This document shows, piece by piece, positions 19,782 through 37,943 of a stretch of DNA of 64,000 bases. Position numbers and translations under genes: made by a program. A model generated the notes under the pieces. It ran no database searches, was not told where the DNA came from, and saw only the letters and a program-made list of their open reading frames with translations. How positions within the stretch are numbered: the first letter of the stretch is position 1; each line of letters opens with the position of its first letter. Source of the stretch: Nitrosospira sp. Nsp11 (lineage in GTDB: Bacteria; Pseudomonadota; Gammaproteobacteria; Burkholderiales; Nitrosomonadaceae); assembly GCF_900142705.1 (NCBI RefSeq), contig NZ_FRBV01000015.1, positions 1 through 64,000 on the forward strand, written 5' to 3'.

Positions 19782-20096
19782 ATGGCGCTTAGCAGAATAC
19801 CCATACGCCGTATCGGCAACCGCCATAACCTTTTCATGGGGGGCGACCGCAAGGCTTTGATGATATCGGGCGTTGCAGCTGCCGCGCTGATATTTTCCGC
19901 CCAAACCCTGTACTCCACTGCCTACGGCCTGCTGCTGTGGTTCACCGCCCTGTTCGTGCTGCGCATGGCGGCAAAACACGACCCCATGCTGCTCCCGGTC
20001 TGGTTTCGACTCATATTGCGCTACAAAAAATACTACCCGGCCAGAGCCACGCCTTTCCGACAGAACACGCACAACCAGAGGCTCCGGTACCGATGA
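19782..20096 (+). CDS. trbD: TrbD (VirB3-like) membrane protein
   Basis: 104 residues with two hydrophobic segments (about 27-45 and 48-62) and the PMLLPVWFRLIL stretch. It starts two bases after trbC and its stop overlaps the trbE ATG (ATGA). Position and length match IncP TrbD. Confidence 0.9.
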   Translation: MALSRIPIRRIGNRHNLFMGGDRKALMISGVAAAALIFSAQTLYSTAYGLLLWFTALFVLRMAAKHDPMLLPVWFRLILRYKKYYPARATPFRQNTHNQRLRYR

Positions 20097-22555: not shown

Positions 22556-23334
22556 GTACAAGCATGGAGCACGTAACTACAATCTTAAGATCGCTTTTCA
22601 AGCGCCGGACTCAAGGGGACGAGCGGGAAGTGTCCTGCGCGATGCCGGATGGAAGGCGGGCAGGGGAGGGCGCCAATCCGTATCTTTCCGCAAGGCGCAC
22701 CTGGAACGACCACGTGGGCGATCAGGCCGCTTCGCGCAAAGCCTGGCAGACGCTGGGCATCCTTTGCCTGCTGATTGCGCTCGCAGCCGTGGGCGGTATG
22801 ATCTATATCGGCAGCCAGTCGAAGTTCATTCCTTACGTCGTGGAGGTGGACAAGCTGGGGCAGACCATTGCCGTGTCGCCGGTGGATCGGGCCAAAGGCG
22901 TCGATCCGCGCGTGATCCATGCGGCCATGGCGAACTTCATTCAGTCCGCCAGAATGGTGACGCCCGATGTCGCATTGCAGCGCAAGGCGATCCTTACGGC
23001 CTATTCCATGCTTTTCGCAAACGATCCCGCCACGGCCAAGATGAACGAGTTCCTGAATGGCAGGCCGGAAGTAAACCCATTCAAGCGAGCTGAAAAGGAA
23101 ACGGTCAGCACCGAGATCGTATCCGTGATCGAGCAGACGCCACAAACCTGGCAGGTGGACTGGATGGAAACCGTGCGCGACCGTCAGGGATTCGTGAAAG
23201 TGCCGCCTTACCGCATGCGCGCACTGGTGTCGATGTACGTGACCGAGCCTGCGCCGGACATCAGCGAAGAGCAGATCCGCAACAACCCGCTGGGCATTTA
23301 CGTCAGTGACTTCGCTTGGTCCAAACAAATCTGA
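22552..23334 (+). CDS. trbF: TrbF (VirB8) channel scaffold protein
   Basis: 260 residues. A cytoplasmic N-terminus with NPYLSARRTWNDHVGD, one membrane segment (about 66-86) and a periplasmic VirB8-fold domain with YIGSQSKFIPYVVEVDKLG. The end reads RNNPLGIYVSDFAWSKQI, a typical TrbF C-terminus. It nucleates assembly of the mating-pair complex. Confidence 0.95.
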   Translation: MSTSMEHVTTILRSLFKRRTQGDEREVSCAMPDGRRAGEGANPYLSARRTWNDHVGDQAASRKAWQTLGILCLLIALAAVGGMIYIGSQSKFIPYVVEVDKLGQTIAVSPVDRAKGVDPRVIHAAMANFIQSARMVTPDVALQRKAILTAYSMLFANDPATAKMNEFLNGRPEVNPFKRAEKETVSTEIVSVIEQTPQTWQVDWMETVRDRQGFVKVPPYRMRALVSMYVTEPAPDISEEQIRNNPLGIYVSDFAWSKQI

Positions 23335-23341
23335 GGTTCTT

Positions 23342-24391
23342 ATGAAAAATCTTCGCTTTATCGCGGCAACGACCCTGCCGCCGCTGACCATCATCGCTGC
23401 CGCCATCCTGCCCTATATGGCCGTTGCCGCATCCAGCACCTTGCCATCTGAAAATATTGACAGCATGGGCGGGGGCCAGCGACAAGTGATCGCCGCTGCC
23501 CCTCCGCCTGACTTCCCGCCGGTTCCAGTCGCGCCGGTTCCCGTGATAGCGCCGGAGGAATCCAGACAGCCCGATGCGTTGTACTTCACCAACCCGGAAC
23601 TGAAACTCACGCCGCACGAGCGCGAAGCGCTGGCGCTGGTGAAGAAGTGGAAGGCGGGCAATTCCACCCAGGGGGTAAAGCCCGTGGCGGGTGCGGACGG
23701 CACCATACGCTTCCTGTTCGGCGCCACGCAGCCGAGCATTGTTTGTGCCGTGCTGCAGGTCTGTGATGTGGAATTACAACCGGGCGAGACAGTGAACGGG
23801 ATCCACCTGGGCGATGAGCGCTGGACGGTTGAGCCAGCCATCACCGGCTCGGGTCCAAACGAAGTGCAGCACCTGATTATCAAACCCACGGATACCGGGC
23901 TGGAAACGTCCCTTGTTGTTACAACCAACCGGCGCACCTACCACCTGCGGCTGCGCTCGCACCGCACCGAATTTATGCCGCGTGTGGCGTTCATCTATCC
24001 GCAAGACGCGATGGCAAAGTGGGACGAAATCAAGAAAAATGACGCCAAAAACCACAGCCGGCAGATCCTGCCCGGTACCGGCGAATACCTGGGCGACCTC
24101 AATTTCGACTACACCATTGACGGCGCCAATGCCGCCTGGAAGCCATTGCGCGTTTATAACGATGGGGTCAAGACCATTATCCAGATGCCCGCCACCATGA
24201 GCCAGTCGGAAGCGCCGATTCTGCTGGTAGTGCGAAAAGACGGGGGCCTCTTCACCGACGAGGAGTCGGTGCAGGTCAACTACCGTCTGCAGGGCAACCG
24301 CTACATCGTTGACAGTATTTTCGACAAGGCCATTCTGGTCGCAGGCGTGGGTTCCAGCCAGGATCGCGTCACCATCCAGCGAGGGAAATAA
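23342..24391 (+). CDS. trbG: TrbG (VirB9) outer-membrane core protein
   Basis: 349 residues from the ATG at 23342, which follows TGAGG; it opens with a signal peptide ending near AVAASS. A Pro-rich linker (PPPDFPPVPVAPVPVI) precedes the conserved domain with IRFLFGATQPSIVCAVLQVCDVELQ and HLIIKPTD. It forms the outer layer of the channel with TrbH and TrbI. Confidence 0.95.
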   Translation: MKNLRFIAATTLPPLTIIAAAILPYMAVAASSTLPSENIDSMGGGQRQVIAAAPPPDFPPVPVAPVPVIAPEESRQPDALYFTNPELKLTPHEREALALVKKWKAGNSTQGVKPVAGADGTIRFLFGATQPSIVCAVLQVCDVELQPGETVNGIHLGDERWTVEPAITGSGPNEVQHLIIKPTDTGLETSLVVTTNRRTYHLRLRSHRTEFMPRVAFIYPQDAMAKWDEIKKNDAKNHSRQILPGTGEYLGDLNFDYTIDGANAAWKPLRVYNDGVKTIIQMPATMSQSEAPILLVVRKDGGLFTDEESVQVNYRLQGNRYIVDSIFDKAILVAGVGSSQDRVTIQRGK

Positions 24392-24393
24392 AA

Positions 24394-24882
24394 ATGCGCT
24401 TCCTCTTTGCCGCCTTTCTGTGCGCATGCCTTGGCGCCTGTGCATTCCAGCCCTTGACGAAGGGCAGTCCCTTTGTCGCCCTTGATGAAAAGATTGCTTC
24501 CGATACCGTCAACCAGCTGGCGCGGCTCTATCCGCCGGCCAGGACGCAATTCAGCCTTGTCGTCTCCGAGCCTAAGAGTTTTGGGGCGCTGCTGGCGGAC
24601 CGGCTGCGCGCCAAAGGCTATGCGCTGTCCGAAAAGGAAGAGAAAACCCGGATCATGCCGCCGGATACCTTTGGCGCGGTATTTTCGCCAAAGCCGGCGG
24701 ACGAGGGCAATAAGCCGATAAAAACACCTGCGCCCGAAGGGATCGAGCTGCGCTATGTGCTCAACCATTCGGCAGACCTTTCCCGCATCACGATGGTAGT
24801 CGGGCACGCCGTGCTGGCCCGTGCCTATCTGGTCGAAAATGGCGCCATTGCCCCTGCCGGGGCCTGGACGTTCAAGGAATAG
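24394..24882 (+). CDS. trbH: TrbH (VirB7-like) lipoprotein
   Basis: 162 residues. The signal ends in the lipobox LGAC (Cys16), so the mature protein is lipid-anchored. The body LARLYPPARTQFSLV fits TrbH of IncP plasmids. It starts two bases after the trbG stop. Confidence 0.92.
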   Translation: MRFLFAAFLCACLGACAFQPLTKGSPFVALDEKIASDTVNQLARLYPPARTQFSLVVSEPKSFGALLADRLRAKGYALSEKEEKTRIMPPDTFGAVFSPKPADEGNKPIKTPAPEGIELRYVLNHSADLSRITMVVGHAVLARAYLVENGAIAPAGAWTFKE

Positions 24883-24886
24883 CGCC

Positions 24887-26170
24887 ATGAGCCAGACAAT
24901 GCCGCCGTCAGTCTCGCCTGGCCAAGCACGAACCGGAGGCGGGCGCCGGGTCAATAATCTGCCGCTGTACCTGATAGGGATAGTGGTGGCCATGTTCCTT
25001 CTCATCGTAGGATTGGTGGCAATGGACCGCGCCAACCCGAAGCAGACAGAAGAAGAAACACCCAGGCGCCAGGGCAACACGTCGCTCTTTGCCAAGGAAC
25101 TTGCCGGGGACCGCCCGGATGGGATCATTCCGGCATCCAGTCCTGTTCTTCCGGAAGATGCCGATTTCCGTCCCGCGAATCCCGACATGCCGCCGGTGCC
25201 GCCGTCCCTGCCGGCCTCTCAGCATCAAACGGACATGGAGCGCATCCGGCAAATGAAGCAGCAACAGTTCGAGGAAGCGCTGAAAGCCAAAACGAGCGTG
25301 CAAATAGCGCAGCCGCGCGAGCGTTCTGCGCCGGATGCGGCGAGTGGGCGGCCGGCTGACCTTCCCGCCAATACAGACCCGGCTGCGGTCTACCGTGCGC
25401 GGCTGGCGCAACTGCGAAAGGCGGGCATGCGTGGTAATGAGGATATGGAAGATAGCGAAGAAACACGGCCAAGCGAATCCGGCCAGCCAGGAAAACCCAG
25501 GAATAATTACGAGGATTTCGCGGGCGGGGGAGAGGATAAGTGGAAGCTCGATTCGCGCCTGCTCCCGCCGCGCTCGCCCTATACCGTGCAAACCACTTTT
25601 GTGATTCCGGTCACGCTGATCACCGGTATCAATTCCACGCTGCCGGGTAAAATCTTCGGTCAGGTCAGCCAGGATGTGTACGACACCGCCACGGGCAAGC
25701 ACTTGCTGGTGCCGCAAGGCACCAAGCTCGAAGGGGTTTACTCCAGCGATGTGGCGTATGGGCAGGCAAACCTGTTGGTTGCCGGACAGCGTTTCGTGTT
25801 TCCCGATGGCAAGACGATGGATATCGGCGCCATGCCCGGCTCCAGCGGAGCGGGCTACGCTGGATTGTCGGATCAGGTCAACAATCACTACGTGCGGCTG
25901 TTCGGTTCGGCCCTGATTATGTCGGCGATCACGGCGGGCGTGTCATTAAGCCAAAGCCGCAACCAGATTGCAGGCACGTTCGGCGCGCCCACGACCAACA
26001 GCGTATTGAGTGCCGCCCTGGGGCAGCAGCTGGGGCGCGTGACTTCGCAACTGATTTCAAAGAATCTCAACATTTCACCGACGCTTGAGATTCGCCCCGG
26101 ATACCGTTTCAACGTCACTGTCACCAAGGATATGGTTTTCAGCAAGCCCTATCAGGCATTCGACTATTAA
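24887..26170 (+). CDS. trbI: TrbI (VirB10) channel protein
   Basis: 427 residues from the ATG at 24887, four bases past trbH. One membrane segment (about 27-45), a long Pro/Gln-rich periplasmic arm, and the VirB10 domain from about 230 (FVIPVTLITGINSTLPGK, VPQGTKLEGVYSSDVAYGQ). It spans both membranes and senses ATP use at the inner side. Confidence 0.95.
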   Translation: MSQTMPPSVSPGQARTGGGRRVNNLPLYLIGIVVAMFLLIVGLVAMDRANPKQTEEETPRRQGNTSLFAKELAGDRPDGIIPASSPVLPEDADFRPANPDMPPVPPSLPASQHQTDMERIRQMKQQQFEEALKAKTSVQIAQPRERSAPDAASGRPADLPANTDPAAVYRARLAQLRKAGMRGNEDMEDSEETRPSESGQPGKPRNNYEDFAGGGEDKWKLDSRLLPPRSPYTVQTTFVIPVTLITGINSTLPGKIFGQVSQDVYDTATGKHLLVPQGTKLEGVYSSDVAYGQANLLVAGQRFVFPDGKTMDIGAMPGSSGAGYAGLSDQVNNHYVRLFGSALIMSAITAGVSLSQSRNQIAGTFGAPTTNSVLSAALGQQLGRVTSQLISKNLNISPTLEIRPGYRFNVTVTKDMVFSKPYQAFDY

Positions 26171-26182
26171 GGGGAGCGTTCC

Positions 26183-26944
26183 ATGAAAACAACGACACCT
26201 GGAATTCTTGCGGCAATGGTTGCAATGAGCCTGGGTGCAGCCACGCCGGCGGCGGCGGGCGGCCTGCCGGTTATCGATATCGCCAGCGTGCAGCAAGAGA
26301 CGATATCAGCCATCGAGGGCGTGAACCAGACACTCAAAATGGTGCAGCAGTACCAGCTCCAGTTGCAGCAGTACGAAAACATGATCCAGAATACGCTGGC
26401 GCCGGCAGCGTATGTGTGGAACCAGGTGGAACGGGTGAACATGGCAATCCTGGGGGCGACGAATACGCTCAATTACTACAGGAACCAGGCAGGCAATCTC
26501 GACGGCTACCTGTACAAATACCAGAACTCGTCCTACTACATGAGTTCGCCTTGCTTTAGCATCAGCGGTTGCCCGGAATCGGAACGCAACCGGCTTTTTG
26601 AAAACCGCAGGATGGCGTCCGACGCGCAGAAGCGGGCGAACGACGCCATGATCCGCGGGCTGGACCTTCAGCAGCAGGAGCTTGAAGCCGATGGGCGCAG
26701 GCTGGCGGCATTGCAGATGCAGGCGCAAGGCGCGCAAGGACAGATGCAGGCCATACAGGCCGCCAATCAACTTGCGAGCAACCAGGCGAGCCAGTTGATG
26801 ACTATACGCGCGCTATTGATGGCGCAGCAGAATGCGGAAGCGGCACGGCAGGCTGCCTTGGCGGATATCGAAGCACAGCGGATAGCAGCCGATGCACAAG
26901 CGACTGCGGGAACCTTCAAAAAAAGTACGCCACGCGAGTGGTAA
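26183..26944 (+). CDS. trbJ: TrbJ (VirB5-like) pilus-associated protein
   Basis: 253 residues. A signal peptide ends near PAAAGG. The mature protein is helical and Gln-rich (QQYQLQLQQYENMIQNTLAP), with a conserved Cys pair in SPCFSISGCPES. It corresponds to the minor pilus/adhesion subunit position of VirB5. Confidence 0.93.
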   Translation: MKTTTPGILAAMVAMSLGAATPAAAGGLPVIDIASVQQETISAIEGVNQTLKMVQQYQLQLQQYENMIQNTLAPAAYVWNQVERVNMAILGATNTLNYYRNQAGNLDGYLYKYQNSSYYMSSPCFSISGCPESERNRLFENRRMASDAQKRANDAMIRGLDLQQQELEADGRRLAALQMQAQGAQGQMQAIQAANQLASNQASQLMTIRALLMAQQNAEAARQAALADIEAQRIAADAQATAGTFKKSTPREW

Positions 26945-26954
26945 GGAGAAAAGA

Positions 26955-27164
26955 ATGAAAGCTGTGCAAATGACAGTTCTAACCGTTCTCGCCATATTGG
27001 CCGGTTGCGATAATTTCGTGCCGGCTGAACGAGAAAAGATAGCCAACCCGACCTGTGAAGATCTGGGAAAAATAACAGATGAGGTGGAACACAAGGCTCT
27101 TCTCGCTAAATGTCCTGACTACCTCCCTGGAGGTAGAAAGAGAAGCAAAGATAAGGAGTGGTAG
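26955..27164 (+). CDS. trbK: TrbK entry-exclusion lipoprotein
   Basis: 69 residues from the ATG at 26955, preceded by AAGGAGAAAAGA. The signal ends in LAGC (Cys18), a lipobox. TCEDL and a second Cys give a small periplasmic domain. In RP4, TrbK sits in the inner membrane or envelope and blocks entry of the same plasmid. The position between trbJ and trbL is diagnostic. Confidence 0.88.
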   Translation: MKAVQMTVLTVLAILAGCDNFVPAEREKIANPTCEDLGKITDEVEHKALLAKCPDYLPGGRKRSKDKEW

Positions 27165-27168
27165 TGAA

Positions 27169-28497
27169 ATGAGAGCGTCGAGTGCATCTATTTTTAATCT
27201 CTTGTTATTGTCGTGGTTGGTATTATTCCCGACGCAAGCTCACGCTCTTATTGAGAATGCAGATGTACTTGATGACATTCTGACGCGATACAAGGATGCA
27301 GCTTCTGCCTGGGCGGGAGTTATCACCGATAGGGCATCCTGGCTCTTCTGGCTGCTGGTGGTCATCAGTATGGTATGGACTTTCGGGTTGATGGCGGTAC
27401 GGCGGGCCGACCTGGGAGAATTCTTTGCCGAATTCATTCGTTTCACGGTGTTCACGGGCTTCTTCTGGTGGCTGCTGATTAACGGGCCGAATTTCTCGAC
27501 TTCAATCATTGCGTCATTAAAGCAAATCGGTGCCGAAGCGAGTGGCTTGCGGGGCATGGGTTCCCCATCTAGCATCGTAGATATCGGATTCGACCTTTTT
27601 TATCGGTCGATAGATGAGGTGTCTTACCGCAGTCCAATCGTCAGCATGACAGGTATCATCGTGTCAGCAGCCATTCTCATCATCCTGGCGTTGATCAGTG
27701 TCAACATGGCGCTGCTGCTCGTGTCGGGCTGGATACTGGCTTATGCCGGCGTTTTCTTCCTGGGGTTTGGCGGCTCGCGCTGGACTTCCGATATAGCGAT
27801 CAATTACTACCGGACAGTATTAGGTGTCGCGGTATCGCTGCTTGCGATGATCCTGCTGGTGGGCATCGGCAAAACCTTCCTGGATGACTACTACTTGAGA
27901 ATGAGTGGAGGGCTGAACCTGAAGGAACTCAGTGTCATGATGGTCGCCTCCATCGTGTTATTTGCTTTGGTCAACAAGATCCCGCCGATGCTGGCCGGGA
28001 TCGTCGGCGGTGGCGGTGGGGGCATCGGCAATATCGGGGCTGGCGCCGCGATCGGCACGGCCGCGGCGGCGACTGGCATGGCAGCGGGCATGATGATGGC
28101 ATCTGCTACTCATGCGGCAGGTGGCGCCTCGGCCATCAAGGCGGCATTCGACGCTGCACACGATACCATGAGTAGCGGCGGGGGCATGTCTACCGGCTTA
28201 GGCGGCTCACCATCCGGTGGCGGTAGCGGCAGGAGTGGCGGCGGCTTGGGCCAGGCGATGGGAACGGGTGCGCGTTTTGCTGCAAACATGGGATCGAATC
28301 TTGCCAAGGGGAGCATGGCGGTCGCAAAGGCGGGCGCAGGTGACCGTGTTAGCCAAACTCCTGGCGGAAAAATCGCCTCGGCCATTCGCGCCAGCATGGA
28401 ACAGCCGGAATTCACCGGAAACCGGTTTGCCAATTCCACCGATACAACGGTAGACCGCGAAGCCGAAACCGAAGCTTTCGTGAACAGCAAGCGCTAG
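27169..28497 (+). CDS. trbL: TrbL (VirB6) polytopic channel protein
   Basis: 442 residues from the ATG at 27169; AAGGAG lies 11 bases upstream. A signal-like N-terminus is followed by about six membrane segments between 50 and 290. The C-terminal 150 residues are Gly/Ala/Ser-rich (GGGGIGNIGAGAAIG and similar), as in other TrbL proteins. It lines the inner-membrane part of the DNA path. Confidence 0.94.
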   Translation: MRASSASIFNLLLLSWLVLFPTQAHALIENADVLDDILTRYKDAASAWAGVITDRASWLFWLLVVISMVWTFGLMAVRRADLGEFFAEFIRFTVFTGFFWWLLINGPNFSTSIIASLKQIGAEASGLRGMGSPSSIVDIGFDLFYRSIDEVSYRSPIVSMTGIIVSAAILIILALISVNMALLLVSGWILAYAGVFFLGFGGSRWTSDIAINYYRTVLGVAVSLLAMILLVGIGKTFLDDYYLRMSGGLNLKELSVMMVASIVLFALVNKIPPMLAGIVGGGGGGIGNIGAGAAIGTAAAATGMAAGMMMASATHAAGGASAIKAAFDAAHDTMSSGGGMSTGLGGSPSGGGSGRSGGGLGQAMGTGARFAANMGSNLAKGSMAVAKAGAGDRVSQTPGGKIASAIRASMEQPEFTGNRFANSTDTTVDREAETEAFVNSKR

Positions 28498-28499
28498 CG

Positions 28500-28955
28500 A
28501 TGGCCGATCTGCCGCCACACATTCAGGAGCGCATCGTCTGCTCCATCACGGCGGCAGTGAAATACGAAGTGCCGGCAAACATCGTCCTGGCCGTAGCGGA
28601 AAAGGAAAGCGGCAGGGCAGGGCAGTGGGTACGCAACTCGAACGGCACCTACGATGTAGGCCCGATGCAGTTTAATACCGCGTATCTTTCCGATCTAGCC
28701 AAGTATGGCATTACCGCAAGCTATGTCGCGCAAGCCGGGTGCTACGCATATGATCTGGCCGCGTGGCGGCTCAGGATGCATATCAGGAACGACAAGGGCG
28801 ATCTGTGGACGAAAGCGGCCAACTACCACTCAACCACGCCGCATCTCAATGCAGCGTACCGGGCGGATCTGATGCGCAAGGCCGCTCAATGGACAAAATG
28901 GCTGGATGCCCGTTTTGTCACCTATGAGGTTACGGCGTCACCTGTGAAGCGGTAA
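28500..28955 (+). CDS. trbN: TrbN lytic transglycosylase
   Basis: 151 residues. The transglycosylase SLT core has IVLAVAEKESG with the catalytic Glu (about 37), then NGTYDVGPMQFNTAYL and AANYHSTTP. No obvious signal peptide is seen. It opens peptidoglycan for the mating channel. It follows trbL by two bases, so trbM, which separates them in RP4, is missing. Confidence 0.9.
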   Translation: MADLPPHIQERIVCSITAAVKYEVPANIVLAVAEKESGRAGQWVRNSNGTYDVGPMQFNTAYLSDLAKYGITASYVAQAGCYAYDLAAWRLRMHIRNDKGDLWTKAANYHSTTPHLNAAYRADLMRKAAQWTKWLDARFVTYEVTASPVKR

Positions 28956-29374
28956 GGCAATCTCGCTATCGCTCGTCCCATGGACAACCCTATGGATAAC
29001 CTGATGGACGGATAGATCCCCGCCCACAAGGTTCCCCACAGGGATTGCCCACAGGCACACCGGACTGCACCACAAAAGCCTTCTGACGCGGCCTTTGGCC
29101 TTGCCCTAGCCATTTTTAAATTTTTCCTTACCACCCCTGAGAGCAAAGCACAAAACCTTAGATGGAGCGGGGGCTGGGGAGGAAGCCCAGAATCAGAACC
29201 AAAAATGAAGCTCAAGAGAGGCCAGGACAAGGATCAAGAGTGGGAACTTTGCCCTGTACTGGATTCGAATTTCAAGATTATTCCAATATGCCCGTTATTA
29301 TTTATATGGTTATCATTGGATGTTGTATCTGACAGCAGGCTAATGAGTGACAACTTGGAAATGGGTATTACGTG
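28956..29374. other. Non-coding junction between Tra2 and cargo
   Basis: No confident gene. The left part has short repeated phrases (ATGGACAACC, ATGGATAACC, and CCCACAGG twice near 29034-29056) that could be an old replication site. An ORF of 56 codons at 29205-29375 ends in TGATG against the next gene start but lacks a ribosome site. This is the boundary where plasmid backbone gives way to accessory genes. Confidence 0.4.
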
Positions 29375-30556
29375 ATGGGTGTGCGGTTTAGGAAATCAGT
29401 GAAGTTAGCACCGGGCCTACGCATGAACTTTAGCGGTAGCGGTGTAAGCTGGACGGTTGGCCCTCGCGGAGCCTCATTAGGGCTCGGGAAAAATGGAATC
29501 CACCTTAATACGGGAATTCCAGGGTCAGGATTTTATTCTCGCCAACGTATCCATAATGCTGGCTCGATCAGCAGATCATCCGGAAAAGCTATTACCAGCG
29601 TTCCAATCACCGTACATATTGATGAAAGCGGCATAATTTCTTTCCTAGATACTAATGGGAATCCAGCACCTGAATCCTGGGTGACTGCTGCCCAAAAACA
29701 GCAGGGCGACGCAATCAGAGGCTTGATTCAAACAGAATGCGACAAGATTAACGCTCAGATTGAGGCACTTGGTCAGCTGCATCATGATACCCCTAACCCT
29801 CTCTTGCGTCCGAGATACCAGCGCATGAGTTTCGATAATCCAGAACCGGTGCAACCAGTTTTCATCAAACCTGGATTTTTCGCTGCTTTATTCAAGAGGG
29901 ATCGGGAACGAATCGAACGTGAAAACGCTGATAAACAGTGCAGCTACGAGAAGGTTCTTCAAGAATGGGAATGTGCCAAGCATGAATTTGAGATCAGGGA
30001 AGCAAATCGGAAGCAGCTCATCGAGCATGGCATCTACTCCGACACAATTGCCATGGCCACCTTCCTGGAAGATACTCTGCAAGATATTGTCTGGCCTAAA
30101 GAAACAGATGTGTCTTTCGACATCTTTGATGAAGGTAAGCATGTCTTTCTAGACGTAGATCTTCCTGAAATCGAGGATATGCCTACAAAGACGGCAACTG
30201 CCCCTTTAAGAGGGTACAGGCTCAACATCAAGGACATTTCTCCGGCAAAAATACGTGCGCTTTATATGCAGCACGTACACGGAGTGGGTTTCCGTATTAT
30301 TGGCGCAACTTTTGCGGCACTACCTATAGCAGAGGAAGTGACCCTGTCTGGTTACTCACAGCGGGTGGATGCGGCTACAGCGCAGATACATGACGAGTAC
30401 CTGTATTCTGTTAGAGTACGTCGGGCTGATTGGAAAATGATCCAGTTCAATAACCTACCAGCCCTGGATGTAGTGGAAGCATTAGCCCGATTTGAATTAC
30501 GTCGGGACATGTCAAAGGCTGCAGTATTTAAACCGATCGAGCCGATAATCCCTTAA
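29375..30556 (+). CDS. DUF4236 domain protein
   Basis: 393 residues. The first 50 residues (VRFRKSVKLAPGLRMNFS, SGVSWTVGPRGASLGLGK, GIHLNTGIPGSG) are a clear DUF4236 domain, found at the N-terminus of many proteins of unknown function. The remaining 340 residues are soluble, with a coiled-coil-like region around 170-215 and no recognised catalytic motif. The ATG at 29375 is used because the preceding GTG adds one residue only. It probably forms an operon with the small lipoprotein 34 bp downstream. Confidence 0.8.
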   Translation: MGVRFRKSVKLAPGLRMNFSGSGVSWTVGPRGASLGLGKNGIHLNTGIPGSGFYSRQRIHNAGSISRSSGKAITSVPITVHIDESGIISFLDTNGNPAPESWVTAAQKQQGDAIRGLIQTECDKINAQIEALGQLHHDTPNPLLRPRYQRMSFDNPEPVQPVFIKPGFFAALFKRDRERIERENADKQCSYEKVLQEWECAKHEFEIREANRKQLIEHGIYSDTIAMATFLEDTLQDIVWPKETDVSFDIFDEGKHVFLDVDLPEIEDMPTKTATAPLRGYRLNIKDISPAKIRALYMQHVHGVGFRIIGATFAALPIAEEVTLSGYSQRVDAATAQIHDEYLYSVRVRRADWKMIQFNNLPALDVVEALARFELRRDMSKAAVFKPIEPIIP

Positions 30557-30590
30557 TGCAATTTATAGGATTATGTAGAAGGGAAATATA

Positions 30591-30812
30591 ATGCGTCCGA
30601 CTTATATTCTTATCACAGGAATTGTGGCGCTTGGGTTTCTCGGATGCGGTAAAAGCCCTTCCGACTCCGAGATTGATGCCTGTGTTGAGAGGGGTGTGGC
30701 TTATTTTAAGGAGATAGGTTCATATCCGACCTTGTCGAGTGCCCCAAATACAGGGCGTCAAGCTGAAGATGTCGCTTTTGAGCGATGCAATCGCACAATT
30801 ACGGCATTCTGA
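30591..30812 (+). CDS. Small putative lipoprotein
   Basis: 73 residues. The N-terminus is a signal with lipobox FLGC (Cys19). The mature part is short and polar with two Cys (DACVERG and FERCNRT). AGAAGGGAAA precedes the ATG. It has no recognised family and may be an envelope partner of the upstream DUF4236 protein. Confidence 0.6.
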   Translation: MRPTYILITGIVALGFLGCGKSPSDSEIDACVERGVAYFKEIGSYPTLSSAPNTGRQAEDVAFERCNRTITAF

Positions 30813-31315
30813 GAGAGGATTACTTGCGCTGCCTCTCGATGTGAATCGCTGCGGTTTTAGTAGACATTCTGCAGCCGGTTGAAATACTGGTTTTCGAACT
30901 CTATCGGGGAAACGCTGTTCGCATAAGTGATCCATAAATCCCACTGAAGGTGTTAAGGTTTTTGTTTGGGCCGCAGGCATTTCATCGGATTACACTGCGG
31001 CCACACCTGAGGATGTTGGCTGGGCGGCACGCCTCATGCGTAGCGTTTTATACTGTGCGTGATGCTCAGATTCAACGGATAATCGTAGCCCGACTGTCTT
31101 GAGAACCGCCAGCAGCGTTTTGAGAGTGGTTGCCTTTGGGCGATAACGTGCGATACAGAGGATGATCGATGGGGAATGAAGATAGACGCTTCACAGGGAT
31201 TGATATTGCTCTCCCCAATCTGCTTGGCGCATCGTATAGGAAGAGCATTCAGCTCGCATTGATATCGATAATTTTGGCAGTTATTGGATTGCATGAGCAA
31301 GCGTTAGAAACTTAG
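30813..31315. other. Stretch with gene remnants only
   Basis: No intact gene is visible apart from the leftward antitoxin-like fragment at 30990-31158. The rest has scattered stops in all frames. It looks like decayed accessory DNA between the DUF4236 pair and the HEPN-motif gene. Confidence 0.45.
30990..31158 (-). pseudogene. Remnant of a HigA/XRE-type antitoxin C-terminus
   Basis: Read leftward, one frame gives ARYRPKATTLKTLLAVLKTV and then GLRLSVES, which resembles the end of chromosomal-type addiction-module antitoxins (pattern PTLRTLxALLKALGLRLSV). It then runs to a stop at 30990. The same frame is closed just upstream (about 31185), so the N-terminal part is gone. No toxin partner is seen beside it. 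Confidence 0.35.
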
Positions 31316-32080
31316 CTAGTTCATATTCTCGATCCTAACCACACACGATACACATGCGTAGTCGGTTGGGCTTACATCATCATTCCACATTATTGCCTCT
31401 GAACGTTTGCCTTCTGCTCCACAAATGCAACATATGATTAACTTGTCTTCATCTTCGCAGTAATGGCAGATGTAATTCCCTAGCACACAAACGGCCGTAT
31501 TCCTTTCACCGCAAAGCCCGCAGTCGTACACTTCGCCATCTCCGGCCCGTTCTCTAGCTTCATCTTGTGCGTGGGTCACGTCCGCTTTATATTCGTCGGC
31601 CAACAGTTGAAAGATTTCGAGATTCGGTTCCGTAATCCAATCTTCCATCTTAAAGTCAGCAAATTCGGCACTGAACTCATTCATCGCCTGCACAAGACGT
31701 CCTAGCGTTCTTCGCGCACTCGCGATTTCCATCTCAAACTTGTGATGCTCAATGCCGTTGCGTAATGTCTTCAGCCACTCCAAATCGACAATAAATTTAC
31801 CATCAAGTGGTTTTCCTTCATTCTTGAGAAACTGTACTGCCTCCCATAACCCAATAGTCTGCTCTTTAGCTATATTTTTGGAGAACGGGTTCTTGTAGAT
31901 CAATAGGGGATGAGCCTGTGAGACATATAGCTTGAATAGTAACTCAAGGAAATGTGAAAAATGCAGGATCGCAAACTTGTACGCTTTGATATTCCCCGCC
32001 TGACCTTCGCGATATTTGACAAGCGCTTCATTGAAGCTGTCGAGCGCATTTTCTTTTAAGTCAAGCTTATGAAGTGGCAT
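31316..32080 (-). CDS. HEPN-motif protein with C-terminal zinc-ribbon-like cysteines
   Basis: 254 residues. The first 150 are helical; FAILHFSHFLELLFKLYV resembles the start of HEPN/MAE_28990-like folds, and LKTLRNGIEHHKFE contains the R-x4-H motif that forms the RNase centre in HEPN toxins and defence nucleases. The C-terminal third has four CxxC knuckles (CGLCGE, CHYCED, CCICGA, CVSC) that probably bind two zinc ions. It stands alone, divergent from the TerY-P triad 420 bp away. RNA binding or cleavage is inferred from the motif only. Confidence 0.6.
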   Translation of the reverse strand: MPLHKLDLKENALDSFNEALVKYREGQAGNIKAYKFAILHFSHFLELLFKLYVSQAHPLLIYKNPFSKNIAKEQTIGLWEAVQFLKNEGKPLDGKFIVDLEWLKTLRNGIEHHKFEMEIASARRTLGRLVQAMNEFSAEFADFKMEDWITEPNLEIFQLLADEYKADVTHAQDEARERAGDGEVYDCGLCGERNTAVCVLGNYICHYCEDEDKLIICCICGAEGKRSEAIMWNDDVSPTDYACVSCVVRIENMN

Positions 32081-32500
32081 GTTGTTGGTGTTGTTTTGAC
32101 AGGTAAAGAATTGACGTGTCTTCTAGGGAGAACAAGGATAGCAGCGGATCAATTAATTTACTCTCATACTTACCTTAAACGTTGGGCTATCCTCCCGGCC
32201 GACTCTTACGGTGATCGTATGGAAGGGCGATGGTGTCTCAAACAAACTCTACTTAATAAGATCCGGCACAAGTTTTGAAAAACTCCTACTCATTGACCGG
32301 TGTACCTAAGTCCAATTGCTAGCTCAACAATGTGTACTTAAAATAAGCACCGCTGCGGGTAACAAAATTCTGTTTCAATATATAGAACGAATCGGATCGC
32401 GCTATCTGGTTTTAAGAATACACAGATACAGATCTTATTAATTTTCTGATAAAGAAGATCTGTAAGTGGTCCAACCAATAACAATTTAGGGGGTATTTTG
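32081..32500. other. Divergent promoter region of HEPN gene and TerY-P triad
   Basis: No gene seen. The right end carries a 10-bp perfect inverted repeat, 32427-32436 with 32455-32464, 37 bp before the VWA gene. Promoters for both directions are expected here. Confidence 0.45.
32427..32464. promoter_or_regulatory. Inverted repeat upstream of the VWA gene
   Basis: TACAGATCTT and AAGATCTGTA are exact complements 18 bp apart. The position just before a well-placed ribosome site (TTTAGGGGG) suggests an operator or leader hairpin controlling the triad. Confidence 0.45.
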
Positions 32501-33178
32501 ATGGATGATTTCGAACAGCAACCCTTTGCTAATGCTGAGTTTGCTGAAAATCCCGAGCAACGTTGTCCGTGCCTTCTTCTGCTCGATACTTCTTATTCAA
32601 TGAATGGAAGCCCGATTCGAGAGCTCAACGACGGCTTGACCGCATTTAAGCAGGATTTGATGGAGGATTCACTTGCAGGCAAGCGCGTCGAAATTGCAAC
32701 CGTCACTTTCGGGCCAGTCCATGTTCGCTCGAATTTCGTTACGGCGGATGCATTTTACCCAGAAACGCTCGAAGCGAACGGGGCTACGCCTATGGGAGAA
32801 GCAATCGAGCTTGGGCTTGACATGCTCCGTGAGCGCAAGAACCAGTATCAAGCAAACGGCATCAGATACTACCGGCCCTGGGTGTTTCTTATCACTGACG
32901 GGGCGCCTACTGATAACTGGCAGGAAGCCAAGCGGCGTGTCTATGAGGGGGAGGAACGAAAAGAATTCATGTTTTATGTTGTTGCCGTTGAAGATGCGGA
33001 CATGACCATTCTCTCGGAGCTGGCGACTCGTAAGGTGATGAAGTTAAAGGGCTTGGCATTTCGCGAGCTTTTTGCCTGGCTATCTCGTTCGCTTGGTGCA
33101 GTATCCCAATCTAACCCGGGCGATCAGGTTCCTTTAGCAAATCCAACCGCTCCCGATGGGTGGGCCGTTGCAGGCTAA
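32501..33178 (+). CDS. TerY-type VWA domain protein (first gene of TerY-P triad)
   Basis: 225 residues. The VWA metal-ion (MIDAS) site is complete: [12 protein letters not shown] (DxSxS), a Thr in [11 protein letters not shown], and [10 protein letters not shown]. It is cytoplasmic with no signal or membrane segment. The ATG follows TTTAGGGGG. TerY-like VWA proteins are proposed scaffolds in tellurite-resistance-linked stress systems. It overlaps the next gene by 23 bases, so the three genes form one operon. Confidence 0.85.
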
Positions 33179-33929
33179 CTCCAACCGTTGGCGATGGGCC
33201 GCAGCATCCAGAACAGGAACGTCACATATTCGGGCAGGTACTAGGCGGCAGGATGCCTATGCTGTGTCGAAGCTGAGGCCCGATGGCCTGTGCGCGATCG
33301 TGTCGGACGGCGCAGGAAGTGCATCTCATGGGGGCTATGGGGCGTGGCTCGTTTGCCGGCACTTGACCCAGCGCTTTCGTATATGGTTTGACCATTCGAA
33401 CAATCTTCCTTCCGAGGAAGATGTCATGGTCTGGATTGACGATCTACGAGACCTGCTAGCAAACGCTGCCAGCAAACGGGGTATTACACGACGTCAGTTT
33501 GCGGCAACACTTGCAGCTATTATAATCACCCCGGAGCAGATGCTCACACTGCAGGTTGGCGACAGCGCTATTGTTGGTCGGCGCAATGGACTATGGGAAT
33601 CTATCTGCTGGCCAGAAAACGGCGAGTATGCATCGACCACATATTTTATAACCGACGATCCCGAAGTTCGGCTAAGAACGGCCCGCCTCCCCCTCGATTA
33701 TGACGCCTTTGCACTGTTCTCCGACGGTATTGAGGATATCGCGCTCGAGCGGCTTGAGTTACGGCCGCATACTCGCTTTTTCGATCCAATGATCAAGCCG
33801 ATCGACTTAGCAAGTAAGTATGGGCGTCTAGGCCCCCTTTCTGATGCCCTCGGCCGTTATCTTGATGAGCCCTCCATCTGCGACCGTACTGATGACGATA
33901 AGACGCTCATTTTGATCTCGGGGGTCTGA
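33156..33929 (+). CDS. PP2C-family protein phosphatase of the TerY-P triad
   Basis: 257 residues. The PP2C metal-binding Asp motifs are visible: [19 protein letters not shown] and [11 protein letters not shown], with DDKTLILIS at the end. RRQDAYAV corresponds to the first motif. It probably removes phosphates placed by the kinase of the next gene. The ATG at 33156 lies inside the VWA gene in another frame, which suggests translational coupling. Confidence 0.85.
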
Positions 33930-33937
33930 GCAAGCGC

Positions 33938-36091
33938 ATGATAAAGATCGGCACCGAACGAGCCGTTCTCGGTAAGCGCATTGGGGGAGGTGGCGAAGGC
34001 GAAGTCTACATAATAGAGGGGAGGCCAGACCAAGCTGTCAAATTATACAAACCTGAGCTGAAAGGCAAGCGCGAGGACAAGGTCAAGGCTATGGTAATGA
34101 GTGGTCTTGCACGCACGACCGATCTTGTCGCTTTTCCTGCGGATATCGTAACAGACCCAAGTGGCCAGTTTGCCGGCTTTATAATGCGGCTAGTCTCTTC
34201 TTATCGCCCGATCCATGAGCTCTACAGTCCCAAATCCCGAAAGCAGCATTTTCCTAATATGGATTATCGATTTCTGGTTCGGGCAGCGCTTAACGTCGCT
34301 CGGGCCGTAGGGAAGGTACATCAGAGCCACTGTGTCATTGGGGATTTAAACCACTCGGGGTTGTTGGTGTCGAGAGATGCGACCATTGCCTTGATTGATG
34401 CAGATAGTTTCCAGTTCAGCCTCAACGACCGAGTATATCACTGCGAAGTCGGCGTTCCCGAGTTCACGCCACCAGAACTACATGGGAAATCTTTCGCGAA
34501 TGCCAAGCGCACCCCAGTGCATGATCATTTCGGTCTGGCGGTTGCAATATTTCATCTCCTTGTCATGGGCCGTCACCCTTATGCTGGCCGATCTCCTGAT
34601 GGGGACCTCAGCCTAGGTGAAGCCATTTTTCAGAACCGTTTTGCTTTCTCGCAGATTCGGAAAGCAGCCACGCGAATGTCGCCACCCCCGGGCTCGATAA
34701 CGCTAGCAGATTTTCCAGAACCAATCGCGCGAGCGTTTGAAGCTGCATTTGGCCTCAACCCTGTTGGGCGACCCGATGCCTCAACCTGGGTCGCGCTCCT
34801 AAAGGAAATGGGAGGCGGTCTCCGACGTTGTTCGACTGTTCGCTCACACTATTATCCACCGGTAGCTAGCAAGTGCCCGTGGTGCCGACTCGCTTTGCAG
34901 TCGGGTGTCGATATGTTTCCCGAGCCGATCGTTGAGGGAGCTCCACCACCAGCGGGCCCACCATTTGATCTCGATAAAATCTGGGCTGCAATCGCCGCGA
35001 TTAATCTTCCGTCGCCCGAAGCAATTTTGCCAAAATGGACAGGCAATATCAGCACGCCGGGTACAGCCGTCGCAGTAGCGAAGAAGGCGCAATTAAGAAG
35101 GAAAGTTGTAGGGATTCTCGCTTTAGCAGGCGCGGGTTATGGTTTATTAAATGCACCCGCCGCCGCGATCATTTGGATTGGCCTAGGAATCCTTGGGTTA
35201 GGTCGTTTCCTCGGCAGTAGTCTCGATGGCGAGCCATTTCAAAGCGCTTACTTGTCTGCAGACCAACATGTTACCCAAGTGGCACAAGCATTTCTGCAGC
35301 GCATCGGTGCGACAGAGCTGTATGCCCTCCAAAATGCTCTTTATGATCAAGTCGCGGAGTATCGAGAGTTTGATGAAAATATAGATCGTGAATTATCCAC
35401 CTTAAAATCAACCCGGGAAATATGCCAGAAGAACGCCTTTCTCGATCGCTTCACGATTCGTCAAGCACAAATCCCGGGCATCGGACCGGCTAAAACCGCG
35501 ATGCTCGCTTCGTTTGGCATTGAAACTGCTGCAGATGTCACCCAACAGGCTGTGCTTGCCGTTCCTGGTTTCGGGGAGGTGATGACGACAAAGATGCTGG
35601 CATGGCGCGGAGGCCATGAAAACAAATTCCGATACAATGCGACTCGTAGCGCATCCGATGTGCAAGCCGAGAATGCCCTAAAATCTCGCTACGCCGCTAA
35701 AAAGAGAGAACTCCAGTTAAAAATTCGATCCGGTCTCGCAGGATTGAAAGTCGAGTCGTCCCGTCTTAGTGCCCGTGCAGCAGTTGCCGATCAAACATTA
35801 ATGCATGCGCTTCAGGCTAAGGCACAGGCCGCACACAACCTGACCAGCTTAGGGTTGACGCTTCCCCCGACGACATCAACGTTTTCGACTAATCTCACGC
35901 AGCCACAGAGCAAATCTCAACAGCTTGGGGCTAGTCGAAATCCAGGGTCCGGATCTCGGAGTGCTAGCTTGCCCTCTTGTCCCCAATGCGGATCGCCGAT
36001 GCAGCGACGGACTGCGCGTCGCGGATTCCGCACGGGTACTCAATTTTGGGGATGTTCGCGTTATCCAACCTGTCGTGGCACACGCAACTGA
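33938..36091 (+). CDS. Serine/threonine kinase with helix-hairpin-helix and topoisomerase-type zinc ribbon
   Basis: 717 residues, multi-domain. The kinase N-lobe has the Gly-rich loop GGGGEGEVY and AVKLYKPE. The catalytic loop is GDLNHSGLLV, and the metal Asp lies in LIDADSF in place of DFG. Cys pairs follow (CPWCRLA), then two hydrophobic segments (about 390-430), then a helix-hairpin-helix at PGIGPAKTAMLASFGI and VPGFGEVMTTKML. A coiled region follows, and the C-terminal zinc ribbon (CPQCGSPM...WGCSRYPTC) is of DNA topoisomerase type. This layout matches the TerY-P kinases linked to DNA processing. Confidence 0.87.
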   Translation: MIKIGTERAVLGKRIGGGGEGEVYIIEGRPDQAVKLYKPELKGKREDKVKAMVMSGLARTTDLVAFPADIVTDPSGQFAGFIMRLVSSYRPIHELYSPKSRKQHFPNMDYRFLVRAALNVARAVGKVHQSHCVIGDLNHSGLLVSRDATIALIDADSFQFSLNDRVYHCEVGVPEFTPPELHGKSFANAKRTPVHDHFGLAVAIFHLLVMGRHPYAGRSPDGDLSLGEAIFQNRFAFSQIRKAATRMSPPPGSITLADFPEPIARAFEAAFGLNPVGRPDASTWVALLKEMGGGLRRCSTVRSHYYPPVASKCPWCRLALQSGVDMFPEPIVEGAPPPAGPPFDLDKIWAAIAAINLPSPEAILPKWTGNISTPGTAVAVAKKAQLRRKVVGILALAGAGYGLLNAPAAAIIWIGLGILGLGRFLGSSLDGEPFQSAYLSADQHVTQVAQAFLQRIGATELYALQNALYDQVAEYREFDENIDRELSTLKSTREICQKNAFLDRFTIRQAQIPGIGPAKTAMLASFGIETAADVTQQAVLAVPGFGEVMTTKMLAWRGGHENKFRYNATRSASDVQAENALKSRYAAKKRELQLKIRSGLAGLKVESSRLSARAAVADQTLMHALQAKAQAAHNLTSLGLTLPPTTSTFSTNLTQPQSKSQQLGASRNPGSGSRSASLPSCPQCGSPMQRRTARRGFRTGTQFWGCSRYPTCRGTRN

Positions 36092-36236: not shown

Positions 36237-36464
36237 TGAATTGAAGACACCCCTTACTCTCTCATGCTCAATCTCAAAGTGTGTTAATTATCACCTTTGC
36301 AAGTGACTCATTTTTGCTTCGCCTTATGAATGATAAAGGACGTTATCATTCACTAATGAATAATTTTATGTCGGTCAAAAATATTATTTCATCTTCATGT
36401 TAGAGCTGGACAACTTCAATCGGATTGATTAGTATTGATTGTTCCTGTTTCAAATGGATTGAAT
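36237..36464. other. AT-rich spacer before the toxin-antitoxin module
   Basis: No gene seen. ATGAATGATAAAGG and ATTCACTAATGAATAA motifs give small palindromes near 36325-36365, which may be antitoxin operators. This is a likely junction between two cargo blocks. Confidence 0.35.
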
Positions 36465-36707
36465 ATGAATACACGCGTCGTCACCGCTCACATTCCTAAT
36501 GAACTTGCTGAACAGATTGATCAACTCGCTGCTCGACTTGATCGTCCCAAGGGCTGGATCGTAAAACAAGCGTTGACCTCTTGGGTTGCCCTTGAAGCAA
36601 AACGCCACCAGCTTACCTTGGAAGGTATCGCCGATGTCGATGCCGGACGCTTGGTCGATCACGCTTCAATTGATGCCTGGGCTGCAAGCCTCGACAAGCC
36701 GGCTTAA
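36465..36707 (+). CDS. Ribbon-helix-helix antitoxin of a ParE module
   Basis: 80 residues from the ATG at 36465. TRVVTAHIPNELAEQIDQLA and LDRPKGWIVKQALTSWVA give the RHH fold. The C-terminal tail (DVDAGRLVDHASIDAWAASL) is the toxin-wrapping arm. It sits three bases before the toxin gene. It should bind its own promoter and neutralise ParE. Confidence 0.87.
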   Translation: MNTRVVTAHIPNELAEQIDQLAARLDRPKGWIVKQALTSWVALEAKRHQLTLEGIADVDAGRLVDHASIDAWAASLDKPA

Positions 36708-36710
36708 TTA

Positions 36711-36986
36711 ATGGCGCTTAAATGGACGGTTAGTGCTGAGCGCGATCTTGTTCGCCTTCACGCCTTTCTCGCTCCAGTAAATTCTACAGTTGCGGCAAAA
36801 GCGGTGAAGCAGTTGGTGGCAGGCACGGAGCAACTTCTTGCTTATCCGCAGCTCGGAGTGCCGCTCGAAGAATTTGCACCCCGAGATGTACGCCGGGTAA
36901 TTGTGGGGGATTACGAAGTGCGTTATGAAGTTGTCGACAATATGATTTATATCCTTCGCCTCTGGCACGCCCGGGAAGATCGATGA
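36711..36986 (+). CDS. RelE/ParE-family toxin
   Basis: 91 residues. WTVSAERDLVRLHAFL, YPQLGVPLEEF and DVRRVIVGDYEVRYEVVDNMIYILRLWHARED follow the ParE pattern closely. It probably poisons gyrase, or cleaves RNA if it is closer to RelE. Its stop overlaps the ATG of the following recombinase by four bases, an unusual coupling. Confidence 0.88.
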   Translation: MALKWTVSAERDLVRLHAFLAPVNSTVAAKAVKQLVAGTEQLLAYPQLGVPLEEFAPRDVRRVIVGDYEVRYEVVDNMIYILRLWHAREDR

Positions 36987-37943
36987 TGACACAGGCACTA
37001 GCCTATCCGCTTCACGGATCAGTGGCACTGCCGGCGTTGTTTTCTCCCACCCCGGATGCTGGCAAGCGCTTCATCGAGTTCTTTACTGCCAATATCCGTA
37101 ATCCGAATACCCGTAAGGCCTACGCCTGGGCTGTAGGGGAATTCGCCACGTGGTGCGAAAATAACGGACTGACTGCGCTGTGCGACATTGAGCCGGTTCA
37201 TGTTGCAGCCTATATAGAAATATTGTGGCAACGGTTGTCAGCACCTTCCGTGAAACAACATTTGGCTGCAATCCGCATGCTGTTCGATTGGCTGGTGGTT
37301 GGCCAGGTCCTTGCCACGAATCCGACGAGCTCGGTACGAGGTCCAAAGCATTCAGTCAGAAAAGGCAAGACGCCTGTCCTGGCCGCGGATGAAGCACGCA
37401 CCCTACTGGATTCAATCGATACCAGTACCCATGTGGGCTTGCGCGATCGCGCCCTAATTGGCTTGATGATCTATACGTTTGCCCGCGTTGGTGCGGCACT
37501 TGGGGTAAAGGTCGAAGATGTCTATGTGCAAAGCCGCCGCACCTGGGTATGGCCACATGAAAAAGGCGGGAAGCAGCATGAAATGCCCTGTCATCACAAC
37601 CTGGATGAATACCTGCACGCTTATATAAATACCGCCCAGTTGACGGAAGCCAAAAGCATTCTATTCCGCACAGCGCTGGGCCGCACCGGACAGCTATCCG
37701 ATCGGCCGATGAGTCAGGCCGATGCATACCGCATGATCCGCCGGCGTGCCCTGGATGCAGATATCCTCACCCTATCGGCAATCACTCCTTCGCGCTACAG
37801 GTATCACGGAATACTTGCGTAATGGCGGCAAGCTTGAAGTGGCGCAACAAATGGCCGCCCACGAGAGCGCACGCACGACCGGACTCTATGACCGGCGTAA
37901 CGACCAAGTCTTCCTGGATGAGGTTGAGCGGATCGTGATCTGA
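36983..37943 (+). pseudogene. Frameshifted tyrosine recombinase coupled to the ParE toxin
   Basis: The first 279 codons give a phage-integrase-like N-terminal domain (NPNTRKAYAWAVGEFATWC) and the start of the catalytic domain (RDRALIGLMIYTFARVGAAL with the first Arg, then KGGKQHEMPCH). Around 37785-37800 the frame is lost. The end continues in a second frame as RATGITEYLRNGGKLEVAQ, then QMAAHESARTTGLYDRR with the catalytic Tyr. Two single-base losses near 37785 and 37797 would restore a single protein of about 320 residues. The broken part is the conserved HxFRATG box, so the enzyme should be inactive unless these are sequencing errors. Confidence 0.8.

Follow-up and report, generated by a model that had tools for sequence, protein, structure and literature searches.

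The closest described relatives of the locus studied here are the Escherichia coli genes yegL, pphC (yegK) and yegI, which lie on the chromosome beside alkA and yegD, and the TerY-P systems. YegI is reported to be a membrane-bound kinase that autophosphorylates and serves as a substrate of the phosphatase PphC (PMC13232886); the same paper states that no condition promoting YegI/PphC expression is known. The TerY-P system of Gao et al. (2020) is reported in a commentary to defend against T7-like phages (PMC7699616), and a TerY-P of Pseudomonas aeruginosa is reported to protect whether the phage dose is low or high, most of the cells staying alive (PMC10889362), a pattern more in keeping with a reversible switch than with suicide. 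The C-terminus of the kinase is described as an OB-fold in Gao-type TerY-P and as a zinc ribbon in the TerY-P linked to CoCoNuTs (PMC11090510). Here we analyzed a set of three genes (the triad), encoding a VWA protein, a PP2C phosphatase and a kinase, in a stretch of 64,000 nucleotides of Nitrosospira sp. Nsp11 (contig NZ_FRBV01000015.1, positions 1 to 64,000), hereafter called the window. Judged by its sequence, this triad is of TerY-P type and belongs to the subtype of E. coli yegL-pphC-yegI. The initial annotation had described the mechanism of such triads as essentially untested, a statement overtaken by the reports cited above on TerY-P as an anti-phage system and on YegI and PphC as kinase and phosphatase.

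Organization of the triad and domains of its proteins

The three genes form a tightly packed single operon on the forward strand. Their products, and the segments distinguished in the kinase, are listed below; Pfam profile scores were judged against the curated cut-offs.

32501-33178, forward strand: TerY/YegL-type VWA protein, 225 aa (Pfam PF00092, E 4.1e-6, above cut-off)
33156-33929, forward strand: PP2C-type Ser/Thr phosphatase, 257 aa (PP2C_2, E 2.5e-44)
33938-36091, forward strand: Hanks-type kinase of YegI type, 717 aa, with kinase domain, CHCC knuckle, transmembrane hairpin, helical region with helix-hairpin-helix (HhH), and zinc ribbon
34829-34885, forward strand: Cys-His-Cys-Cys (CHCC) cluster C298-H304-C313-C316 of the kinase, each residue shared by 87 of the 88 sequences, the remaining one having a gap
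35105-35212, forward strand: predicted two-helix transmembrane hairpin of the kinase, about residues 390-425 (peak hydropathy 1.95)
35465-35617, forward strand: HhH segment of the kinase, about residues 510-560 (Pfam HHH_5, E 0.059, below cut-off)
35975-36085, forward strand: topoisomerase-type C4 zinc ribbon of the kinase, residues 680-716 (Zn_ribbon_Top1, E 3.6e-9, above cut-off)

The VWA and PP2C genes overlap by 23 bp, and the PP2C stop codon is separated by 8 bp from the ATG of the kinase. The VWA start was placed at the ATG at 32501, with an AGGGGG run upstream, the mechanical start of the open reading frame (ORF) being the TTG at 32498; the PP2C gene has an alternative TTG start at 33168. 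A scan for promoters and terminators gave no more sites than shuffled sequences.

Catalytic and metal-site residues are conserved across all three proteins. The metal-ion-dependent adhesion site (MIDAS) of the VWA protein is intact, and its residues D29, S31, S33, T96 and D133 are kept in 86 of 86 sequences, while an N-terminal CPC motif retains its first Cys in 84 and its second in 54 of the 86. This protein shows 71-72% identity to its nearest two plasmid relatives, and about 28-32% identity, over 82-92% of its length, to plasmid proteins annotated as TerY. In the phosphatase, D51, D136, D190, D247 and D248 are kept in 86-87 of the 87 sequences.

The Pfam Pkinase score lies below its cut-off (E 9.8e-6, 25.6 bits against 31.7). 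Despite this, the third protein is identified as a kinase because its modelled domain (pLDDT 89.3, pTM 0.70) aligns to PknB (5u94) in Foldseek, with a TM score of 0.74 by target, and because the catalytic residues are conserved: D136, N138, D154 and D156 occur in all 88 sequences, and K35 in all but one, which has a gap there. The motifs themselves are divergent, with (V/I)GD in place of HRD and DxD in place of DFG, and those of E. coli YegI are alike. Among solved structures, searches by sequence gave only weak matches for the kinase (E 0.0024 or worse) and for the VWA protein (E 0.001 or worse).

The CHCC cluster directly after the kinase domain is a predicted zinc knuckle, which on the basis of its residue pattern would bind zinc. 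In the segment that follows, peak hydropathy exceeds 1.6 in 83 of 87 sequences and two segments exceed 1.3 in 66 of them; the model places the two hairpin helices at residues 376-405 and 407-425. The kinase is therefore probably membrane-bound, and the predicted hairpin would put the kinase domain and the HhH/zinc-ribbon end on one side of the membrane. DNA polymerase IV models match residues 499-617 (E 0.006), and within the HhH segment G544 and G546 are found in 86 of 88 sequences (two gaps), with model helices at 517-525, 536-540 and 546-562. The zinc ribbon is optional: 61 of 87 relatives have its four-Cys pattern. The initial annotation had missed both the transmembrane hairpin and the CHCC knuckle, and it also overlooked the E. 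coli relative.

Comparison with yegL-pphC-yegI and with TerY-P systems

The triad has the gene order of E. coli yegL-pphC-yegI, and its proteins are 58% (TerY-type VWA protein and YegL), 32% (PP2C and PphC) and 33% (kinase and YegI) identical to their counterparts. The motifs GD-x-N and D-x-D, the CHCC cluster, the hydrophobic hairpin and the HhH are common to the kinase of the window and YegI, so that the features of the YegL-PphC-YegI subtype, a kinase with hydrophobic hairpin and HhH encoded in the order VWA-PP2C-kinase, are all present. Unlike the window kinase, YegI has no C-terminal zinc ribbon and belongs to another clade of the kinase tree, with long-branch warnings; furthermore, the E. 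coli triad is chromosomal whereas that of the window is plasmid-borne.

The composition of VWA protein, PP2C and Ser/Thr kinase is also that reported for TerY-P anti-phage systems: the window encodes a TerY-like VWA protein (Pfam score above cut-off and similarity to TerY), an adjacent PP2C-like phosphatase and a Ser/Thr kinase with a C-terminal zinc ribbon. The three family assignments made from the letters of the window were borne out, the VWA protein and the phosphatase by profile searches and the kinase by its fold and catalytic residues, and composition, gene order and the TerY kinship of the VWA protein all fit the earlier call of a TerY-P-type triad.

As far as they are described in PMC11090510, the TerY-P modules of type II/III-A CoCoNuTs resemble the triad in having a zinc-ribbon kinase, a VWA protein, a PP2C and a HEPN protein nearby. 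Unlike in CoCoNuTs, the HEPN gene of the window is divergent and is not conserved with the triad. A Pfam scan of 19 window proteins, which covered part of the ORFs of the window, gave no McrB/McrC or CnuH-type protein and hence none of the CoCoNuT components CnuB/McrB GTPase, CnuC and CnuH-CnuE. The kinase domain also shows weak similarity to the defence kinase PD-T4-6 (PADLOC E 3.7e-5). PD-T4-6 is a single-gene system and, unlike the triad kinase, is not known to have a phosphatase or VWA partner.

Conservation of the triad as a unit

Loci for comparison were chosen by the kinase alone, keeping 80 of 516 contig relatives and adding seven plasmid loci, 87 in total. The VWA, PP2C and kinase genes are all present, in the same order and on the same strand, in 85 of these 87 loci; the two exceptions (L045 and L051) are truncated on their upstream side by the end of the contig. 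The same triad order was found in all four more distant plasmid loci. Linkage among the homologues, on which the initial annotation had made its triad call depend, is thus the rule.

The distance matrices of the VWA protein, the PP2C and the kinase domain agree with each other (rho 0.79-0.85, with none of 300 permutations as high), an agreement which may partly reflect shared host descent. Mean pairwise identities across 82 triads were 67% for the VWA protein, 54% for the kinase domain, 49% for the PP2C, 37% for the HhH region and 25% for the linker and hairpin (82 of the 86 loci and the window that encode the three proteins, after removal of near copies and of broken or truncated triads). Because the VWA protein is the best conserved part of the triad, we read it as the putative joint between the partners.

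An all-against-all clustering of neighbouring genes was used to look for a conserved fourth partner, and this candidate was rejected, as no other family occurs in more than six of the 88 loci.

Small local partners were observed in some lineages, such as HxsABC in some rhizobia and, in some sphingomonads, genes for AbiE, SbcCD-like proteins and HerA. Some rhizobial triads lie directly after the His-Xaa-Ser radical-SAM genes hxsB-hxsC-hxsA (L005:3314-6416, L129:313-3434, L082, L083 and the more distant L075). On two sphingomonad plasmids (L002:1585-10401 and L003:1582-10402), genes for AbiEi-AbiEii, a metallophosphoesterase, an SMC-like ATPase, a protein of no recognized family and a HerA-type ATPase are upstream of the triad. 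In a Photobacterium triad (L126:4209-11054) the kinase has 328 aa and lacks the C-terminal domains, and genes for radical SAM and HD-domain proteins come next. Two triads are seemingly damaged: one on a Rhizobium plasmid, where IS66 adjoins PP2C and kinase genes that are short (L129:4139-5792), and one in a metagenome bin, with a split kinase frame (L061:9956-12199).

Distribution and phylogeny

The closest kinases, about 60% identical, are from Altererythrobacter and Sphingobium, and the nearest plasmid relatives show 56-57% identity. In a quick tree built from 84 of the 88 kinases, and subject to long-branch warnings, the window falls in a set of 45 rows (SH-aLRT 100) that also includes Desulfovibrio, Chlorobi, Verrucomicrobia and alpha-, beta- and gammaproteobacteria. 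The YegI of E. coli is placed in a different set. Taxon labels need 14 changes on this tree against a minimum of seven, and this mixing suggests horizontal transfer, although it does not prove it.

Within its own lineage the triad is rare: a full-length kinase was found in one of 101 relatives, which is the genome itself, and seven other matches were partial. At class level, the VWA protein was found at 1e-40 in nine of 369 genomes, including its own. Many relatives are on large contigs of chromosomal size and others on viral contigs, where in one case a large terminase gene lies about 2 kb from the triad (L109:2927-10142) and in another the triad lies between an integrase and a helicase-PLD protein (L110:5006-13748). 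Phage records gave a single weak match, to the kinase domain.

The conjugative element and its cargo stretch

The contig of 73,995 bp encodes a relaxase, a coupling protein, a replicase, KfrA and trb genes, in agreement with the conjugative element recognized earlier; its ends share no overlap of 30-127 bases, so circularity finds no support. The neighbouring features that frame the triad are:

19937-28955, forward strand: conjugation backbone from trbE to trbL, with an SLT lytic transglycosylase (62-85% identity to sister plasmids)
29372-30556, forward strand: DUF4236 protein (PF14020, E 2e-19), in the same cargo stretch as the triad
31316-32080, reverse strand: divergent HEPN-motif protein with C-terminal zinc-finger cysteines (PADLOC candidate PDC-S64, E 3.3e-24)

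The backbone ends at the SLT gene (28955), where the cargo stretch begins, and G+C content is 0.587 in the trb genes and 0.498 in the cargo stretch 29372-36091. The nearest trbE genes (78-81% identical) belong to four genomes of the same genus, all of them lacking the triad. In the parts of these sister plasmids examined, trbF to trbL match at 62-82%, and no DUF4236, HEPN, VWA, PP2C, kinase, ribbon-helix-helix (RHH) or ParE gene was found. At the matching site of three of them (L146, L147 and L149), seven of ten scanned ORFs match PADLOC models at 1e-5, a scan which left a few intervening ORFs outside. The site in G020 has Gabija (GajA 3.6e-253 and GajB 1.4e-263) and the candidate system PDC-S11; that in G019 codes for a type II methyltransferase, the candidate PDC-S06 and a DUF262-type protein matched by HEC-06/Orf5 models; and that in G011 has a type IIG restriction enzyme. 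The stretch behind trbL-SLT thus looks like a plasmid defence hotspot, with different defence genes in each of these three plasmids.

The HEPN motif attributed to the neighbouring protein in the initial annotation was confirmed: R107-x4-H112 is invariant in five of five homologues, as are seven Cys. Its DUF3644 match is below cut-off (E 0.0057), and structure prediction gave a model of poor quality (pLDDT 51.4). The family is rare, found in one of 274 genomes of the class (its own) and in three plasmid records, and a scan of viral contigs gave no relative.

Directly downstream of the triad (36435-37822) are genes for an RHH antitoxin-like protein, a ParE-like toxin and a tyrosine integrase. 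Elsewhere on the same contig (57018-58595) is a gene for an Eco57I-type methylase, which gives a strong match to a type II methyltransferase. DUF4236-like genes are found near three of the 87 other triads (L076, L065 and L029).

Discussion

We consider it the more probable account of this locus that the triad is a reversible phospho-switch of the YegLKI branch with an anti-phage role, without holding it with high confidence. Such a self-contained phosphorylation switch would protect the host, and thereby the plasmid, from phages. The hairpin would anchor the kinase in the inner membrane, with the catalytic domain and the HhH/zinc-ribbon end both cytoplasmic. At rest, the PP2C, tethered to the kinase via the metal site of the VWA protein, would hold the kinase dephosphorylated. 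When the C-terminal domains, of nucleic-acid-binding type, met abnormal nucleic acid, for example phage DNA at entry or replication, the kinase would autophosphorylate; the active kinase may then phosphorylate host or phage targets and stop phage growth, after which the PP2C would reset the switch. Of this account, the conserved enzymes, their operon, their inheritance as a set and the mobile, defence-rich surroundings are observed here, and autophosphorylation of YegI, its reversal by PphC and the anti-phage activity of TerY-P are reported for relatives; DNA sensing, the VWA protein as joint, the target and the defence role of this subtype are all parts that we infer.

Triads lie in defence-rich islands. 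At 1e-8, matched defence models numbered 211 per 134 nearest neighbours of triads, 273 per 134 genes more than 4.5 kb away and 30 per 124 random chromosomal genes. These are counts of models and not of genes, in which one protein may match dozens, and three other genomes supplied the control. Of 136 ORFs listed, the near set comprised 134, the two longest being omitted for their size and loci L003, L010, L018 and L074 skipped as near copies; the far set comprised 134 of 171 genes, and the control 124 of 149 genes from 12 stretches of three chromosomes. An enrichment closest to the triad was accordingly rejected, the far count being higher than the near one, and only the contrast with random chromosome holds. 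A CD-NTase gene is found 0.8 kb from the triad of the nearest relative (L031). A defence role, rated plausible in the initial annotation, has therefore gained contextual support from the sister-site genes and from the model counts relative to the chromosome, but no sharper signal beside the triad itself.

Several points weigh against an anti-phage role of this triad. Since the near set is no richer than the far set, the defence signal belongs to the island and not to the triad, and it carries the limits of the counts given above. The fourth sister plasmid (G016, L148), inspected by eye and outside the scan, appears to have UmuC and SOS-peptidase genes at the matching site. The VWA protein and the PP2C of the window show no match, at E 0.1, to the PADLOC models TerY (PDLC02224) and PP2C (PDLC02222), which give weak matches for other triads; because of this the triad is TerY-P-type by composition but of another subtype than that of PADLOC. 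No OB-fold was found in the kinase by Pfam, and its model is helical past residue 376 up to the zinc ribbon, so that an end made of HhH and zinc ribbon, set against the OB-fold of Gao-type systems, separates the two as far as the published description and the PADLOC models go. DNA binding is a guess from the domain types, with an HhH profile below cut-off. In the literature searched, we found no phage test of YegL-PphC-YegI-type triads and no report of a defence role for E. coli yegL-pphC-yegI.

A stress or metal response, in which the metal site of the VWA protein senses metal or oxyanion stress and the kinase and phosphatase tune physiology, as suggested for ter-linked VWA proteins, agrees with the kinship to TerY, with the invariant MIDAS and with the metal-related genes seen by eye in the plasmid cargo, for example that of a ChrA-like transporter; in addition, TerY-P triads are described in tellurite resistance, with metal sensing as a hypothesis (PMC11090510). 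We regard it as unlikely, since the genome has no TerD, and hence no linked TerD-family genes of a tellurite cluster, its one TerB-domain protein is on another contig (C20), and the neighbours over the 87 loci are diverse and defence-rich, not metal-related. The triad thus stands alone, without ter genes nearby, as had been stated before. Still less probable, in our view, is a regulator of plasmid biology acting on conjugation, entry exclusion or plasmid maintenance. Its appeal lies in the position of the triad right behind the trb operon, in a kinase that is probably membrane-bound, and in the 45 of 78 plasmid records with a kinase match that were typed as conjugative; yet the nearest sister plasmids carry the same trb operon and lack the triad, and relatives occur on contigs of chromosomal size or viral origin, the E. 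coli copy itself being chromosomal.

The HEPN gene raises a further alternative, a four-gene system with the HEPN protein as an RNase effector switched on by the triad, by analogy with the TerY-P/HEPN pairing described for CoCoNuTs (PMC11090510). The two are divergent neighbours in one cargo stretch, the HEPN motif and cysteines are conserved, and a homologue of this rare family lies 1.3 kb upstream of one other triad (L069). The remaining 86 of the 87 other triads lack it, however, no triad was seen in the flanks examined of the three plasmid homologues, the gene is on the opposite strand, and defence genes cluster anyway. The HEPN gene was consequently rejected as an obligate fourth member of the core; we consider a four-gene system as improbable as the regulator of plasmid biology, a functional link to the triad weak, and the HEPN gene possibly a separate defence gene.

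Beyond the window, we advance tentatively, as a possibility short of a favoured view, that the whole YegL-PphC-YegI branch, E. coli K-12 chromosomal genes included, may be a distinct, widespread and membrane-tethered anti-phage phospho-switch which the PADLOC TerY and PP2C models miss, with the HhH-bearing end of the kinase, whether or not it has a zinc ribbon, as nucleic-acid sensor and the plasmid triad in a trb-downstream defence hotspot. With relatives on mobile elements, both at defence hotspots and on viral contigs, phage challenge bears directly on the question of when YegI and PphC are expressed in E. coli. If this proposal is true, phage defence would gain a membrane-anchored kinase/phosphatase immune switch with a sensor of nucleic-acid type, and catalogues of defence systems would need an added branch that is invisible to the PADLOC models.

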